This document shows positions 3,043-32,161 of a DNA stretch of 32,161 bases, piece after piece (the stretch's first letter is position 1; each line of letters starts with the position of its first letter). The stretch comes from Candidatus Gastranaerophilales bacterium. Its GTDB lineage: Bacteria; Cyanobacteriota; Vampirovibrionia; Gastranaerophilales; Gastranaerophilaceae. The translations under genes and the position numbers were made by a program. The notes under the pieces were generated by a model. It made no database searches and was not told the DNA's origin. It saw nothing but the letters and a program-made list of their open reading frames with translations. The stretch lies in assembly GCA_944323035.1 (NCBI GenBank), contig CALUQY010000021.1:1-32161 (forward strand). The letters run 5' to 3'.

Positions 3043-4227
3043 CTAATTGGCAGATGATGTATTTGGATTTTTTATTGAACCTGCAACAGTATGAACTAAC
3101 TCTTCGCCTTTATAAACCTCAATTCTATTATTTTCAGGATTTGCATCATCAATAATGAATTTTTGCGTATAAGTTTCTCCATCTTTTGTATATTTTTTAC
3201 TAACATATTTAACACCATTTATTTCTTCACAAATAGTTACACGACCTTTTATAGGATTTTCAAATCTTGTAAACGAACCATCTTGCGTTACCATATACAA
3301 ATTCCGCAAGCGACCTTTAGCATCGTATTGTTCAAATTGAAGGAGTTTATCTTCTTGCCCCGGGATTTCTTTTAATATAGAAACACGTCTTGACTGTCCT
3401 TGCCCAAACTCGGTAGCTTTATAGGTATCATCAGAAATACGCTGCATTTCATGAACGACTTTTGTTCCTGTCTTTTTGTCAAATCTACGTATTAAGACCA
3501 TATCGTCCTCACCCTTCGGACCAAACTGAACTTCCATAATTTTTCTGCCTGTTTTTGCATCAGTTACAACACCTGAGGTTACCACAGACCTGAAACGTTT
3601 TCCGTCAAGATGTGTTACATACGTCAGTTTTCCCCAAATAGTCTTATCAATATCTGCGAATTTTTCTAAATCAAAGCCTGAGCCGTCAGAATGCGCAGTT
3701 CGTTTGTAAATAACTTCTCCATTCTTGCCGTAGCGAATCTCTGATGCAACAACATTATGTGCCGGATCTGTAACACCTGCCGGAGCCATTTTAAATTCTC
3801 TGACGCGTTCAATTGTTTTGCCGTCTTTTGCATAACGTACTGTTTTAATAAGGTTTCCGTCTTTATCGCGTTCTTCGGTGCGGAAAAGATATTCCGTTCC
3901 GTCCTCAAGTTTTTTCATAAATTTCTTTACTGGTTCAAACACTGGCGCATCAGAAACGGCAGAAGTCGTAGATTGAACGGATGAGGACGCCCCCCCCCCC
4001 CCCGTAGCGGACACGTTGGAAGATGTTTTAGGCGCTTTCCCTTTTCTTGCATATAAAATTATTCCGCCGATAGTAATAGCGGCAAGCGCGCCAAGCCCGA
4101 CCATTTTCTTCATAGATAAACTTTTTTCTTCATCTGACGGTATTTCCTGAGCGGCTGAACCCTCTGAACCTTTAAACGAAACCATTTGTTTTACCGGCAG
4201 CGCAGCATTAATTTTTTCTATAGACAT
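3043..4227 (-). CDS. Membrane-anchored protein with YD/MORN-like repeats and a poly-G tract
   Basis: Function not recognised. The start is ATG at 4227 (MSIEKINAALPVKQ), which has a TAGGAG ribosome site; an ATG 16 codons upstream has none. The protein has 394 residues. Residues 1-42 are a short N-terminal region with VSFKG, 43-60 are one hydrophobic segment (VGLGALAAITIGGIILYA), and 62-100 are a Ser/Gly/Thr linker with four Gly at 76-79. From about 108 to 385 it is built of beta-rich units of the form xYxxDGKxxxxxxx (YAKDGKTIERV, YGKNGEVIYKR, YDAKGRLRNLY, YTKDGETYTQK). These resemble YwqK/MORN-like or YD repeats found in surface and polymorphic proteins. A single N-terminal anchor would leave the repeat domain outside the membrane. 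The Gly linker is encoded by 14 consecutive G, which makes the gene prone to frameshift. Confidence 0.7.
   Translation of the reverse strand: MSIEKINAALPVKQMVSFKGSEGSAAQEIPSDEEKSLSMKKMVGLGALAAITIGGIILYARKGKAPKTSSNVSATGGGGASSSVQSTTSAVSDAPVFEPVKKFMKKLEDGTEYLFRTEERDKDGNLIKTVRYAKDGKTIERVREFKMAPAGVTDPAHNVVASEIRYGKNGEVIYKRTAHSDGSGFDLEKFADIDKTIWGKLTYVTHLDGKRFRSVVTSGVVTDAKTGRKIMEVQFGPKGEDDMVLIRRFDKKTGTKVVHEMQRISDDTYKATEFGQGQSRRVSILKEIPGQEDKLLQFEQYDAKGRLRNLYMVTQDGSFTRFENPIKGRVTICEEINGVKYVSKKYTKDGETYTQKFIIDDANPENNRIEVYKGEELVHTVAGSIKNPNTSSAN
3990..4003 (-). repeat. 14-nt poly-G tract (coding strand) in the linker of the surface protein
   Basis: Fourteen C on the plus strand read as G14 in the coding strand and encode part of Thr, four Gly and part of Ala (residues 75-80). 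A change of one or two G would truncate the protein just after the membrane anchor and remove the whole repeat domain. Confidence 0.95.
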
Positions 4228-13548: not shown

Positions 13549-14748
13549 TCATCTTTTAACACAGCGAACCTGAGCATCAACAACAGCCTCGTTAACATAG
13601 ATTGTTCCGACAGTAATAGCCATACGCCAGTATTTCCCGGGTTCTAACAATGATGAAGATAAGTAATCATAATCACTATCTGCTAACCCGACAAGAAATC
13701 TATTCACAAACATAGACTTCAATTCTGCATGATTTGGCAGCCGGCTGTCAGAATCAGCTTTTGTGCACTGCCTGCGGCCTTCCTCAAGATTATAGCGCCC
13801 GATATCACGGGTAAGCGGTACCGGTGCGACAACAACGCTGTCCACAGGGTTAAATGCCGTAATAAATCCGATATCTTTGCCGACTGTATTAGGGCCTTTC
13901 GTTCCGTTCAAATCATAGATGAAATTTGCGCACATATACGGCTGAACATAGTGTGAATTATTCATTACACCGGTTTCATCACGACAATTCGGGTTATAAT
14001 AAACAGCGATGCTCTCACCGTTGGCCGTTTCAAAAGCCGCGATTTTAGTATCGGTTTGTGAATAGCTATGGTGGACATCCCCGCCATCAAAATCAAAGTT
14101 AGGGTTAAAGCCAACAAGAGTTTCGGGCAGCCCCTGAGAATAAGCCGAGTATGGATTTGAGCCGTTTAACGCCGTAATTTTGGACGGAATTCCGCAGTCC
14201 GCCAGATGTTCATAATCGCAAATGTTATTAATTTTTAGAACTTTTGAAAGCCCTGCTGTAACAAAAGTTTCCGCAGCAGTATCTTCGGTGACGCTTCCGC
14301 TTTCATCTTCGGTTAAAGTTCCGTAGCCATTGAGTGAAGGCATCAGGGCAATTGCCTGAGAAAACCGCGCATAAAGGGCTTTTCTTTGCGTGTTCCATGT
14401 CCGCTCGTTGATATTGCCGGTGAGTGACGGAAGCGTTATCGCCGCCACCACGCCGATTATCGTGAGGGATAAGAGGATTTCCGCCATGGTAAAGGCACTC
14501 ATACAGACTATACCCTTAACTGTCATTCCGAACTTGTTTCGGAATCTGTCCAACGACACTGATAGCTCGCACCGCTGAACAGACCCTGAATCAAGTTCAG
14601 GGTGACAGATACTTTTCACATTATCGCTCTGTGCCTCTGCTCGCTCGCGCAGTTCAAAATGACAATTATAGGCTTTCGACTCCTCAATTGTGCCTGTTAA
14701 GAGAGGCCCCCCCCCCCCTGCCTCATTCGTTACAATTCGGTTTTTCAT
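13549..14748 (-). CDS. Pilin-like protein 1 (type IV pilin N-terminus, lectin-like C-terminus), poly-G 'in frame'
   Basis: The mature part starts at codon TTT 14493-14491: FTMAEILLSLTIIGVVAAI, a classic class III (prepilin) N-terminal helix with Glu5. It runs 314 residues. Conserved blocks shared with the two paralogues are the first ~60 residues, AAFETANGES...NPNC, ANFIYDLNGTKGPNTVGKDIG, and the end. The segments between differ. The last ~90 residues (C...DSDSRLPN..ELKSM...YW...VRCVKR) resemble DUF1566/C-type-lectin-like modules. The leader MKNRIVTNEAG (start 14748, with AAAGGATGG upstream) would be a proper prepilin leader, but 74 codons of repeat DNA separate it from FTMAEI. The residue before F is Ala, not Gly. 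An internal start at 14502 (MSA, with AAGGG upstream) would restore a 3-residue leader. An ATG at 14760 lies in the same frame. Function (pseudopilin or adhesin) is inferred. Confidence 0.8.
   Translation of the reverse strand: MKNRIVTNEAGGGGPLLTGTIEESKAYNCHFELRERAEAQSDNVKSICHPELDSGSVQRCELSVSLDRFRNKFGMTVKGIVCMSAFTMAEILLSLTIIGVVAAITLPSLTGNINERTWNTQRKALYARFSQAIALMPSLNGYGTLTEDESGSVTEDTAAETFVTAGLSKVLKINNICDYEHLADCGIPSKITALNGSNPYSAYSQGLPETLVGFNPNFDFDGGDVHHSYSQTDTKIAAFETANGESIAVYYNPNCRDETGVMNNSHYVQPYMCANFIYDLNGTKGPNTVGKDIGFITAFNPVDSVVVAPVPLTRDIGRYNLEEGRRQCTKADSDSRLPNHAELKSMFVNRFLVGLADSDYDYLSSSLLEPGKYWRMAITVGTIYVNEAVVDAQVRCVKR
14494..14715 (-). repeat. In-frame 222-bp block of palindromic repeats between pilin leader and mature domain
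   Basis: The block begins inside the poly-G run and ends just before the FTMAEILL codons. It is a mosaic of short dispersed repeats. These are CCTCTCTTAACAGGCAC, a unit with GCGCGAGCGAGCAGAGGC, the hairpin CCCTGAACTTGATTCAGGG, and the hairpin ATTCCGAAACAAGTTCGGAAT. Read in frame it encodes 74 residues, including CHPELDSGS and DRFRNKFGMT, strings typical of translated repeat DNA rather than of a folded domain. The same block, equally long apart from one extra G, sits at the same place in pilin-like gene 2. Confidence 0.85.
14707..14718 (-). repeat. 12-nt poly-G tract in pilin-like gene 1
   Basis: Twelve C on the plus strand read as G12 in the gene and encode four Gly directly after the leader MKNRIVTNEA. 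With 12 G the leader frame continues into the mature pilin frame. One G more or less would break it. Confidence 0.95.
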
Positions 14749-14771
14749 TTTGCTTTCCATCCTTTCATTTT

Positions 14772-21140: not shown

Positions 21141-22331
21141 TTAACGTTTTACACAACGGACATAAGTAAAGCTTTCAAGAGTGTCTAACGGCCTCAGCAC
21201 CCTGTTACCGGTAATCGTTGACTGCGCCCACGCCGCCCGTTCACCGGAAGATGTAATTCCACGACTTGAGGTCGCTATCCAGCCGAACGGAAGATTTCCT
21301 ATAAGTTCTTTATTTACAAACAAAGAAGCTGCTTCCTCTTTATTCGGGATCCGGTATTCACTATCCAGCGAAGTGCAATACTTAGAACCCTCAGAGAGTG
21401 AAAATCCTGTTTCTCCCGCAGCAATATGCGGCATTGGAGCTGCTACAGCACTATCTGTCGGATATAAAACCGTAATAAATCCGATGTCTTTACCTACAGT
21501 ATTTGGCCCTTTTGTACCGTTTAAATCATAAATGAAATTGGCACAAATTTTTGGCTGCATAGCATCTTCTCTATCAGTTGATGCCAAATCCGAAACACAA
21601 AACGGATTATAATACACAGCTAAACTTTCCCCGTTAGCCGTTTCAAAGGCTGCAGCCTTGGTATCTATCTGAGAATGCGAATATACATCTGTAGCAGTTG
21701 AATACGACATGCTTACCATCATTGAATTTAAAGCTGACATTGTTCTTGGAAATGACGCGATTGTACCGCCTGACATATTAGTAATTTTGTCAGGGATACC
21801 GCAATCCGCCAGATGTTCACTGTCACAAATATTATTAATTTTTAAGACCTTAGATAACCCTGCAGTTACAAATGTTTCGGCGGCAGTGTCTTCAGCGGAG
21901 GTAGAGCTGTCGCCCTCGGTCAACGTTCCATAACCGTTTAATGCAGGCATGAGCGCTATTGCCTGTGAAAACCGCGCATAAAGAGCTTTCCTTTGCGTGT
22001 TCCAAGTGCGCTCGTTGATGTTTCCGGTGAGTGAGGGCAGTGTAATCGCGGCTACCACGCCGATTATCGTGAGGGATAATAATATCTCCGCCATGGTAAA
22101 ACCACATACAAGGGTCATTTCCTTTAATGTCATTCCGAACTTGTTTCGGAATCTGTCTGGCGTTACCGGTAGAACGCAATGCTGGACAGATCCTGAATCG
22201 AGTTCAGGATGACAGTTACTTTTCACATTATCGCTTTGCGCCTCTGCTCGCTCGCGCAGTTCGCAATGACAATTAAAGGCTTTCGACTCGCCAATAGTGC
22301 CTGTTAAGAGAGGCCCCCCCCCCCCCTGCAT
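21141..22331 (-). CDS. Pilin-like protein 2, leader out of frame because of a 13-G tract
   Basis: Paralogue of the gene at 13549-14748. The mature part begins at codon TTT 22100-22098 (FTMAEILLSLTIIGVVAAI), preceded here by a proper Gly (VCG). It shares the N-terminal ~60 residues, the AAFETANGES and ANFIYDLNGTKGPN blocks and the VRCVKR end, with different sequence between. The C-terminal part (C..LDSEYRIPNKEEAASLF ... VRCVKR) again looks DUF1566/C-type-lectin-like. The frame as annotated starts at ATG 22331, which has no ribosome site. The well-supported start, ATG 22359 (MKKRRKVLTNAG, with AAAGGATGG upstream), is one base out of frame because the poly-G run has 13 G. Translation could still begin at internal ATGs just before the mature part (MTLVCG). 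As written the gene is likely silent or reduced. Confidence 0.75.
   Translation of the reverse strand: MQGGGGPLLTGTIGESKAFNCHCELRERAEAQSDNVKSNCHPELDSGSVQHCVLPVTPDRFRNKFGMTLKEMTLVCGFTMAEILLSLTIIGVVAAITLPSLTGNINERTWNTQRKALYARFSQAIALMPALNGYGTLTEGDSSTSAEDTAAETFVTAGLSKVLKINNICDSEHLADCGIPDKITNMSGGTIASFPRTMSALNSMMVSMSYSTATDVYSHSQIDTKAAAFETANGESLAVYYNPFCVSDLASTDREDAMQPKICANFIYDLNGTKGPNTVGKDIGFITVLYPTDSAVAAPMPHIAAGETGFSLSEGSKYCTSLDSEYRIPNKEEAASLFVNKELIGNLPFGWIATSSRGITSSGERAAWAQSTITGNRVLRPLDTLESFTYVRCVKR
22101..22323 (-). repeat. 223-bp block of palindromic repeats in pilin-like gene 2
   Basis: Same mosaic and same position as the block in pilin-like gene 1: CCTCTCTTAACAGGCAC, then the GCGCGAGCGAGCAGAGGC unit, then hairpin CCTGAACTCGATTCAGG, then hairpin ATTCCGAAACAAGTTCGGAAT. 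Without the extra G it would be 222 bp, identical in length to the gene 1 block, so the only frame-breaking difference is the homopolymer. Confidence 0.85.
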
Positions 22332-22359
22332 TTGTTAATACTTTTCTACGTTTTTTCAT
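22273..22359 (-). other. Out-of-frame leader peptide of pilin-like gene 2
   Basis: From ATG 22359 the frame reads MKKRRKVLTNAGGGGASLNR and eight more residues to a TAA at 22275-22273, 28 residues in all. The AAAGGATGG site upstream is shared with pilin-like gene 1. One G fewer in the tract would fuse this leader to the mature pilin frame. Confidence 0.75.
22314..22326 (-). repeat. 13-nt poly-G tract in pilin-like gene 2
   Basis: Thirteen C on the plus strand (22314-22326) read as G13 in the gene. The tract follows codon GCA of the leader exactly as in pilin-like gene 1, where there are 12. Confidence 0.95.
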
Positions 22360-22446
22360 CTTTCCATCCTTTCTTTGTTATAAGGCAATAGGTCAATAGG
22401 GCATTATGGCAATGGGACTATTTTTCTTCCATTCGGTCATTACGAC

Positions 22447-29545: not shown

Positions 29546-30893
29546 TAATTTGAACGAATGGCAGGAGAAGGATTTAAAATACATCTGGCACCCGTGTTCG
29601 CAGATGAAGGATTACGAAGAACTTGCGCCGATTGTAATAGAGCGCGGCGAGGGGATTAACCTGTATGACACAGACGGGAATAAATATTATGACGTTATAA
29701 GTTCGTGGTGGTGCAATCTTCTGGGGCACTGTCATCCGAAAATTAACGCTGCAATAAAAAAGCAGGTAGATACCCTTGAACACGTAATTTTTGCTAATTT
29801 TTCACACAAACCGGTAATAACATTATGCGAACGGCTGATAAAAGTGCTGCCGGAAGGACTTTGCAAATTTAATTTTGCGGATAATGGTTCAGCGGCAATT
29901 GAAATGGCATTAAAAATGAGTTTTCAATATCACTACCAGACCGGAAACCCGCAGAAAAAACGGTTTATGGCGCTGACTGACGCCTATCACGGCGAAACAA
30001 TCGGAGCACTTTCAGTCGGCGGAGTGGATTTGTATTCTGAAATTTACAAACCGATTTTGCTTGACGTTGAACGGATTGAGGCGCCGGACTGCTACAGATG
30101 TCCGTACGGGTATTTACACGGTGAATGTAACTGTCCTTGTATTGAAAAAGCGGAAGAAACCTTCGCGCGTGTCGGGGAAGAAACCTGCGCGTTAATAGTT
30201 GAGCCTCTTTTGCAAGGTTCTGCGGGTATGAAAGTTTACCCGCCGTTGTATTTGAAAAAGCTGCGCGAGCTTTGCGATAAGTACAATGTTCACCTTATTG
30301 CAGATGAAATTGCGACCGGCTACGGCCGCACCGGCAAAATGTTTGCCTGCGATTGGGCAGGAATTTCGCCCGATATTATGTGCCTTTCAAAAGGTCTGAC
30401 CGGCGGCTACATGCCAATGGCTGTGGCAGTTACAACGCAAAAAATTTACGATGCATTTTACGCTGATTACATAGAAGGCAAAGCGTTTATGCACAGCCAC
30501 ACCTACGCAGGCAACCCGCTTGCGTGCTCTGCGGCCTGCGCGGTACTTGACATACTGGAAGAAGAAAAAATTATTGAAAAAGCACAGGAAAAAGCGGTTT
30601 ATTTTACAAATAAAATAAAAGAGAAATTCGCCAATCACCCGAATGTCGGCGACATCCGCCATATCGGGCTTATAAACGCGATAGAACTTGTTGAGGATAA
30701 AGCTGCGAAAAAAGGTTTTGACTCAAAATTGCGTGTAGGATATCAGATTTACAAAAAAGCGCTGAAAAAGGGCGTAATATTACGCCCTTTAGGGAATGTT
30801 ATTTACTTCAATCCGCCGCTGATTATAGAAAAAGCGGACATGGATTACGTGATTGAAGTTGCTTATGACTGCCTGCGTGAAGTTCTTGGTTAA
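29538..30893 (+). CDS. bioA: Adenosylmethionine-8-amino-7-oxononanoate aminotransferase
   Basis: PLP enzyme that makes DAPA from KAPA with SAM as amino donor, feeding BioD. It is a class III aminotransferase fold of 451 residues: WHPCSQM near 17-23, SSWWCNLLGH at 55-64 (typical of BioA), and DAYHGETIGALS near 148-159. The Asp of LIADEIATGYGRTG (253-266) is present, as is the PLP Lys285 in LSKGLTGGYMP. A Cys cluster (Cys185, 188, 197, 199, 201) sits in a loop after the active-site region; a related Cys-rich loop is known in some BioA subgroups. It overlaps bioD by 8 bases. Its stop overlaps the stop of the convergent pilin-like gene by 4 bases. No terminator follows the gene. Confidence 0.96.
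   Translation: MNNNLNEWQEKDLKYIWHPCSQMKDYEELAPIVIERGEGINLYDTDGNKYYDVISSWWCNLLGHCHPKINAAIKKQVDTLEHVIFANFSHKPVITLCERLIKVLPEGLCKFNFADNGSAAIEMALKMSFQYHYQTGNPQKKRFMALTDAYHGETIGALSVGGVDLYSEIYKPILLDVERIEAPDCYRCPYGYLHGECNCPCIEKAEETFARVGEETCALIVEPLLQGSAGMKVYPPLYLKKLRELCDKYNVHLIADEIATGYGRTGKMFACDWAGISPDIMCLSKGLTGGYMPMAVAVTTQKIYDAFYADYIEGKAFMHSHTYAGNPLACSAACAVLDILEEEKIIEKAQEKAVYFTNKIKEKFANHPNVGDIRHIGLINAIELVEDKAAKKGFDSKLRVGYQIYKKALKKGVILRPLGNVIYFNPPLIIEKADMDYVIEVAYDCLREVLG
30767..30790. repeat. Perfect 24-bp palindrome inside bioA
   Basis: AAAGGGCGTAAT and its exact inverse meet with no loop, within codons for KKGVILRPLG. The protein sequence here is a conserved stretch of BioA, so the palindrome uses synonymous freedom. 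It could form a hairpin in the mRNA near the end of the operon, or on the opposite strand downstream of pilin-like gene 3, which otherwise has no visible terminator. Confidence 0.8.
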
Positions 30894-32161
30894 CGTTTAA
30901 CGCAGCGAACCGAAAAAACTTCACTACCTTCAACCGTTGAATCAACCGGTGAAAGCATACCCTTATTGGTATATGTCACCTGCCATGCATTCTCGCCCTC
31001 CCGCGAATTCGTCCAATATCTTGTATTGGCAAGATTTGACACGTTATGATTATACTGTAGTGCCATCATTTCTTCCAAATTTGGCGCCCTGTATTCACTG
31101 TCAACATTTTTGCAGGAACTGTTAGCCTCACTCCAGTTGACCTCCAAATCCCCGCCGCGCAAGAATGGCATAGGCGCAACAACAACGGAATCCGTTGGAT
31201 AAAACACAGAAATAATTCCAATATCTTTACCAAAAGTATTCGGGCCTTTAGTTCCATTCAGGTCGTAAATAAAATTAGCACACATCTTCTCCGGAATATG
31301 CAAGGCATTTTCGACACTCAGGACATCTTTTGCGTTACAATTAGGGTTATAAAAAGCCAAAATACTTTCCCCGTTTGCGGTTTCAAATGCTGCGGCATTG
31401 ATATCAGCATAAGTAACCGAAGAACCGGAATAAGAACCAAATAGCTCAACATTTATATTTTTGCTGTACAGATCACTGATTTTTACCGGGATATCCATTT
31501 TTGAGCCCTGAGCGTTGGTCATTGAGGACGCAATACCACAATCAGGAAGTGAGTCCTTATTACAAATATTGTTAATTTTCAGGACTTTAGTCAATCCGGC
31601 AGTCAAAAAAGTTTCCGTAACATTGTGAGTATCCGAACTGTCAAGAGTTCCGTAGCCGTTCATTGCCGGCATCAGAGCAATTGCCTGTGAAAACCTCGCA
31701 TAAAGCGCTTTTCGCTGGGTGTTCCATGTGCGCTCATTTATGTTGCCGGTAAGTGACGGAAGCGTTATCGCCGCAACCACACCGATTATCGTCAAGGATA
31801 ACAATATTTCCGCCATTGTGAACGCTATTCGTCGTCCGTAAGCACATAAACCATTTATGGCTCTCGACTCAGTCGAGCGGCCCAGTCGGGCTGCCATGGT
31901 AAAGGCACTGAGTGCCATCCACAAGGGTTGAACATGACTTTTTAACGAACAACCCAAACAGGAAGCCGCCTTGACCGGCGGAGTCATTGCGAGCGACCAA
32001 CGGGAGCGTGGCAATCCACTTGAGGACGCGGCGTTGGTTGACAGGATTGCCGCGCGGTCAGCGACCGCTCGCAATGACAAAAAATTGTCACCCTGAACTG
32101 CGCGAGCGAGCAGAGGCACTAAGCGAAAACCACGCTTTTCGCGGTGCCGTTTTTCGCGAGG
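30890..32161 (-). CDS. Pilin-like protein 3, open to the right edge, with duplicated FTMA motif
   Basis: Third paralogue. From FTMAEILLSLTIIGVV (codon TTC at 31822-31820) it shares the constant N-terminus, AAFETANGES, ANFIYDLNGTKGPNTFGKDIG and the VRCVKR end, with its own middle segments. The C-terminus (DSEYRAPNLEEMMAL ... YW ... VRCVKR) is again lectin-like. The residue before F is Ala. Upstream the frame stays open without a stop to the last base of the window through repeat DNA, so the true leader may lie outside. A GTG at 32119 is only formal; ATG 31918 (MALSAFTMA) is another candidate start. The element order before the mature part differs from genes 1 and 2, there is no poly-G in view, and 81 bp separate two FTMA copies. 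The stop overlaps that of bioA. Confidence 0.7.
   Translation of the reverse strand, partial: PREKRHREKRGFRLVPLLARAVQGDNFLSLRAVADRAAILSTNAASSSGLPRSRWSLAMTPPVKAASCLGCSLKSHVQPLWMALSAFTMAARLGRSTESRAINGLCAYGRRIAFTMAEILLSLTIIGVVAAITLPSLTGNINERTWNTQRKALYARFSQAIALMPAMNGYGTLDSSDTHNVTETFLTAGLTKVLKINNICNKDSLPDCGIASSMTNAQGSKMDIPVKISDLYSKNINVELFGSYSGSSVTYADINAAAFETANGESILAFYNPNCNAKDVLSVENALHIPEKMCANFIYDLNGTKGPNTFGKDIGIISVFYPTDSVVVAPMPFLRGGDLEVNWSEANSSCKNVDSEYRAPNLEEMMALQYNHNVSNLANTRYWTNSREGENAWQVTYTNKGMLSPVDSTVEGSEVFSVRCVKR
31811..31903 (-). repeat. 81-bp in-frame insertion with duplicated FTMA codons
   Basis: TTTACCATGGCA (31903-31892) and TTCACAATGGCG (31822-31811) both encode FTMA and are exactly 81 bp apart. 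Between them lie two short hairpins (GCCC-GACT-GGGC and CTCGA-CTGAG-TCGAG) and AGCCATA, as in the repeat near 26402. The first copy matches the start of gene 1's mature codons; only the second leads into EILLSL. Confidence 0.75.
31983..32078. repeat. 96-bp imperfect inverted repeat (GTCATTGCGAGCG ... CGCTCGCAATGAC)
   Basis: The outer arms GTCATTGCGAGCG (31983-31995) and CGCTCGCAATGAC (32066-32078) are exact inverses. The inner arms GGCAATCC (32010-32017) and GGATTGCC (32044-32051) are too. This is a typical dispersed palindromic (REP/MITE-like) repeat. It lies within the open frame of pilin-like gene 3. A partial GCGCGAGCGAGCAGAGGCAC unit follows at 32100-32119, inverted relative to the copies in genes 1 and 2. 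Confidence 0.8.

Follow-up and report, generated by a model that had tools for sequence, protein, structure and literature searches.

Poly-G tracts in type IV prepilin leaders point to probable translational phase variation among a large repertoire of pilins in a Gastranaerophilales bacterium

Introduction

Phase variation by poly-G tracts is best known from pathogens, in which the tracts lie in many different genes. Such contingency genes have been described in Neisseria meningitidis and Campylobacter (PMC5084427, PMC8437040), and the ~11 opa genes of Neisseria gonorrhoeae carry CTCTT repeats in the sequence encoding their leader peptide (PMC3745409). Among gut commensals, the sortase-dependent pilus of Bifidobacterium breve has runs of G10-G11 inside a pilus gene; the productive slip is mainly the omission of one G, so that a surplus of one G is the usual state, and for one tract the majority length is not that of the reference (PMC9187656). 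Pilins to which a further module has been added, so-called modular pilins, are known from Streptococcus sanguinis, where PilB and PilC are of this kind (PMC8179133, PMC9934059).

Here, we analyze a window of 32,161 nucleotides (the whole stretch of DNA studied) from a Candidatus Gastranaerophilales genome of 1.94 Mb in 41 contigs (hereafter G000), in which pilin genes carry a run of G within a type IV prepilin leader. The mechanism resembles that of Opa and of the B. breve G tract and differs from both by its type IV prepilin leaders, its scale, and its phase lock. As in Opa, a repeat in the leader-coding sequence of dispersed paralogous, putative surface proteins restores or breaks the frame according to repeat number. 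Unlike in Opa, the repeat is a G run instead of a pentamer, the leaders are those of type IV prepilins, there are scores of copies, protein family and phylum are unrelated, and most copies are locked one G too long (+1). As in B. breve, a gut commensal has a G run within a pilus gene and most often carries one G more than the frame requires, but there each genome has two sortase-pilus clusters and the tract was not described in a prepilin leader, whereas here the family is one of type IV pilins. With N. meningitidis and Campylobacter, the system shares the use of homopolymeric G/C tracts to switch surface functions at the level of translation, although there the tracts serve many unrelated genes and here they fall mostly within a single pilin family. 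Finally, as in PilB and PilC, a pilin N terminus bears an extra module, which is adhesive in the S. sanguinis proteins; what is different here is a predicted Lcl/C-type-lectin-like head, in scores of copies and behind a G run. We found no paper joining Gastranaerophilales with phase variation, and a broader search gave none among the matches listed (subscription journals and preprints lay outside the search).

Results

The window contains three pilins of one family and a further tract in a non-pilin gene. Its features are listed below; the Shine-Dalgarno regions, the leaders, and the out-of-frame reading of gene 2 were taken directly from the sequence.

14719-14766, minus strand: gene 1 Shine-Dalgarno region (GAAAGGATGG) and leader from ATG 14748, MKNRIVTNEA; a module common to ~70 loci
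14707-14718, minus strand: gene 1 G12 tract, with leader and pilin in one frame (ON)
14494-14706, minus strand: gene 1 spacer, with a CCTCTCTTAACAGG motif adjoining the tract, then a REP-like repeat mosaic; pilin frame open
13549-14493, minus strand: gene 1 mature pilin, starting FTMAEILL, with a predicted Lcl/C-type-lectin-like C-terminal domain (residues 204-314)
22327-22368, minus strand: gene 2 Shine-Dalgarno region (AAAGGATGG) and leader from ATG 22359, MKKRRKVLTNA
22314-22326, minus strand: gene 2 G13 tract, +1 (OFF)
22273-22359, minus strand: gene 2 leader read out of frame, stop after 28 codons
22101-22313, minus strand: gene 2 spacer, pilin frame open
21141-22100, minus strand: gene 2 mature pilin, FTMAEILL from 22100, with prepilin motif TIGR02532 above cut-off
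30890-31822, minus strand: third pilin of the family (gene 3), from FTMAE; its 5' end points towards the contig end (32161), with leader and any tract beyond the assembly
3990-4003, minus strand: G14 tract in a non-pilin gene (3043-4227, DUF2963 match)

In genes 1 and 2, the tract lies ~30 nt after the ATG and its end is 213 nt from FTMAE. With 12 G, the leader opened by the Shine-Dalgarno-preceded ATG reads through to FTMAEILL, whereas with 13 G it meets a stop after 28 codons. This confirms the observation of an earlier note on this DNA, which had reported a ribosome-binding site shared by the two genes (AAAGGATGG, indeed found in both), the two leader peptides followed by poly-G (both on the minus strand), and an out-of-frame gene 2 leader ending after 28 codons (22359-22273). 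The one-base difference between the genes in the distance from the first G to FTMAEILL also stands, but the absolute values of 222 and 223 do not, as we counted 225 and 226 nt. To say that the paralogs differ only by homopolymer length was too strong, since their mature proteins are ~60% identical.

Within the leaders, at 14494-14706 and 22101-22313, REP-like palindromic repeats are read in frame (CHPELDSGS..., FRNKFGMT). The spacer between tract and FTMAE is a mosaic of such repeats in most loci of G000 and of the sister species G004, and only a few codons long in many loci of genomes G001, G003, and G005. It is possible that the spacer is a tolerated landing zone for REP-like repeats, perhaps because it lies inside a leader that should be cut off.

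The mature pilins show a median identity of 56%, with the first 50 residues almost invariant and variable C termini. TIGR02532 matched gene 2 with 17.9 bits (cut-off 16.3); genes 1 and 3 gave weak matches to related pilin families, and their first 24 residues are nearly identical to those of gene 2. A prepilin peptidase is encoded in G000 (PF01478, 36.5 bits, cut-off 26.5). In an AlphaFold2 model of pilin 1 (44 paralogs; mean pLDDT 89), a long N-terminal helix (helices 3-19 and 21-50, confidence being lower in residues 1-30) was predicted. The fold comparison, which covers the C-terminal domain, matched residues 204-314 to the C-terminal domain of Legionella Lcl (8q4e_A; Z 10.7, rmsd 1.7 over 91 residues; Foldseek E 8.3e-5) and, with lower Z, to other C-type-lectin-like folds including invasin and intimin. 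Pfam Lcl_C (PF07603) was found in 21 of the 44 paralogs at E up to 0.01; within the window, the match of gene 3 falls below the curated cut-off, and genes 1 and 2 have none. We infer that these pilins would be lectin-like and displayed on the surface.

The design predicted by the earlier note for several loci proved to be common. G000 has 87 runs of at least 9 G, against ~1.6 expected from base composition, and the window alone has 18 overlapping G8 words, against 0.22 in shuffles. About 70 tract loci of G000 follow a single layout of Shine-Dalgarno-preceded ATG, 9-16 codons, G tract, spacer, and FTMAEILL. In sequence, the module reads AGAAAGGATnGAA, ATGAAnAA..., 9 to 16 codons, G10-G16, and then FTMAEILLSLTIIGVVAAITLP after 12 to 759 nt, a distance scored only where the pilin is on the same stretch as the tract. 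The pilin family occupies ~100 stretches of G000 (109 matches, some of them fragments), and at least 50 of its genes have a run of ~12 G just after the start codon. These copy numbers are lower bounds because several contigs end in or beside leader-tract modules. GGG accounts for 8.7% of glycine codons in nine other open reading frames of the window, yet the tract is pure GGG. Over the 8568 codons counted from tract to FTMAE, only 10 stops fall in the pilin frame; the alternative frames contain 456 and 497.

In the genus as a whole, more than 100 leader-tract loci with a readable pilin were found, and relatives occur in 14 of the 41 genera sampled in the family. A run of at least 10 G is present in 116 of the 146 family genomes sampled (36 of 41 genera), and a G run no more than 30 nt before FT.AE in 36 genomes from 14 genera, a search whose reversed-pattern control gave no match. 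In G047 (genus g3), at C1 and C4 (L384-L397), the G run precedes FTLAEV behind a different leader (MNKLNLNL) and the tracts are shorter, 9-11 G; 7 of them are ON, 5 are +1, and 2 are one G too short (-1).

We next consider the frame states. Of 139 distinct loci scored in six genomes of the genus, the frame is intact at 28, whereas the tract has one G too many at 102 and one too few at 9. These counts come from draft assemblies, where long homopolymers can be miscounted by one base. In G000, 12 of the 52 clean tract-bearing pilins are in frame, compared with 11 of the 12 tract-free pilins with a complete 5' end (Fisher p 1.7e-5). Therefore, the start rule is sound and it is the tract that breaks the frame. 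In G002, of the same genus, there is no run of at least 10 G and the prepilin leaders are mostly ordinary short ones such as MKKFA|FTMAE. The modal tract length varies with the frame requirement (13, 14, or 12, and 11 for some leaders) and is always the in-frame length plus one. When tract lengths were permuted among loci (5000 shuffles), the +1 class held 57.6 ± 4.9 loci with a maximum of 76, compared with 102 observed. A common equilibrium length therefore does not explain the excess, nor would simple neutral slippage about a single preferred length predict it. A cause in lost mismatch repair is unsupported: MutS1 is intact in all seven genomes of the genus.

Could the extra G be an artifact, all genes being truly in frame and the short-read consensus adding one base to most long runs? 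The +1 is systematic in several draft assemblies, some G001 tracts contain N gaps, and G-run lengths in databases can be wrong (PMC9187656). We nevertheless regard assembly error as improbable: one base added to every tract could not account for the 28 loci in frame, and some short runs, whose length is easier to determine, also miss the frame, at -1 (G8 at L221, G9 at L128 and L187), although the G9 of L403 is in frame. Also against it, the G14 tract of the non-pilin gene keeps the reading frame in this same assembly. That gene (3043-4227) is in frame in both G000 and G004; its relatives in G003 (G14) and G006 (G11) have one G too many. No close tract-free ortholog of it was found, and hence no empty site for the tract. 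In named relatives, the neighborhood of the fructose-bisphosphate aldolase gene gave no orthologous tract, since none of those read has the corresponding pilin beside that gene.

A start codon adjoining the tract offers another way to read gene 2 and similar +1 copies. A second ATG at 22331 (ATG CAG GGG...) opens the pilin frame with 13 G, giving a 396-aa open reading frame beginning MQGGGG; were the gene to start there, at ATG-CA-G13, the tract would be no switch. However, no Shine-Dalgarno sequence precedes this ATG, and an ATG in the pilin register is available for a +1 tract at only 37 of the 139 loci (28 of 139 for a -1 tract) and at none with leaders ending ILS. We rejected it as a general explanation, and consider it very unlikely overall.

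Comparison with a related genome revealed differences in tract length. We compared loci of G000 and G004 that share the same upstream neighbor, with flanks mostly 85-98% identical, and found that lengths at syntenic loci differ between the two species and shift the frame, as the earlier note's proposal would have it; this variation is between species only. In two cases, leader and spacer length are the same, the pilin body is orthologous, and the tract differs: L037 (G13, ON) corresponds to L160 (G14, +1), and L038 (G13, +1) to L159 (G14, -1). At L047/L153 and L055/L171 the phase differs, but so do the pilin bodies. Elsewhere too, the body at a syntenic site is often another paralog, usually 54-63% identical. 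Among the bodies read in G004, a match at 80% exists for just 12 of the 50 pilin bodies of G000, so the sites are conserved while their heads are replaced.

The same pairs bear on whether tract-bearing copies are decaying pseudogenes, as might be thought from the fact that most are out of frame and that pilin fragments and internal stops occur in a few cases. Nearly every body of full length is free of interruptions, and dN/dS, far below 1, is 0.04-0.16 in the informative syntenic pilin pairs (one nearly identical pair was uninformative), each of which includes at least one +1 copy. The OFF copies compared are therefore not decaying, and we find decay the least credible of the explanations considered.

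Some tracts outside pilin leaders share a motif with those inside them. In the full set of tracts that we read in the genus, most pilin-leader G runs and about half of the others have a CTTAACMGG-like motif on their 3' side. By script count, CT[TGC]A[AGC]C[AC]G occurs no more than 22 nt after the run at 10 of 17 tracts outside pilin leaders, compared with a background of 0.57% of positions. Leaving aside two of the 17 (L088 and L113), which are leader tracts interrupted by contig ends, gives a fairer count of 8 of 15. At L032 (1371-1510) and at L033 and L034 (around 1501), G runs lie in genes for AlgX/SGNH-type proteins, just past the part that encodes the N-terminal membrane segment; the gene at L032 adjoins an MBOAT gene, and phase-variable O-acetylation of a surface polymer is possible. 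At L079 (2001), L091 (3241), L104 (67), and L334 (1501), an intergenic G run followed by ATTGCTTAACMGGC lies shortly upstream of opposite-strand open reading frames, and such runs could act on promoters. A bolder proposal, which we put forward tentatively and hold to be doubtful as a whole, is that G run and motif form a portable switch cassette, placed in pilin leaders, in O-acetyltransferase-type and other membrane-protein genes, and between genes; a search for an empty site found none. Most copies would be selected at the in-frame length plus one, from which one omission turns them ON, giving a genome-wide, default-OFF but poised repertoire of lectin-headed pilins.

Discussion

The best explanation of these observations, to which we give a probability of about 0.72 as a reading of genome sequences, is that the tracts place a large repertoire of pilins, mostly OFF, under translational phase variation. 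A pure run of ~10-14 G within the prepilin leader of each family member would be a simple-sequence contingency switch: slipped-strand replication, the presumed agent, would add or remove one G and so join the Shine-Dalgarno-preceded start to the pilin frame or separate it. The mature pilin would remain unchanged because tract and spacer lie in the leader, which prepilin peptidase should remove. A minority of copies would be ON at any time (12 of the 52 clean loci in G000) and most OFF by a single surplus G, so that different cells should display different lectin-like pilin heads. The earlier note's view that this is the pattern of slipped-strand phase variation is supported by recurrence, by syntenic length differences, and by tract-free paralogs being in frame when tract-bearing ones mostly are not. 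We infer that switching would take place within a population, and that surface display would bring a benefit in contact with host glycans, immunity, or phages.

The most serious competitor, in our view unlikely, holds that the genes function at +1: slippage during transcription or -1 frameshifting of the ribosome would restore the frame in a fraction of products, and the tracts would set low expression and not an OFF state. A G run permits complete re-pairing once a -1 slip has occurred, tracts keep to one G above the in-frame length across species and across leader classes that differ in absolute length, and purifying selection acts on +1 copies. However, about one-fifth of the loci are exactly in frame, and a ribosomal slip needs only ~7 G, yet 11-14 are kept. 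Because in-frame copies and tract-free in-frame paralogs coexist with +1 copies in the same genome, we prefer the reading, without holding it to be proven, that selection favors OFF states that a single omission turns ON over partial expression from +1.

Phase variation of this kind would mean that, in an uncultured gut lineage related to cyanobacteria, a single pilin family offers scores of variable heads, predicted to be C-type-lectin-like, each individually switched by a G run in its leader. Fifty independent switches alone would allow ~10^15 surface combinations. Automatic annotation will call many such genes truncated or misplace their starts. The system makes it testable how commensals vary their contact with host glycans, antibodies, and phages and why the OFF states cluster at one G too long.
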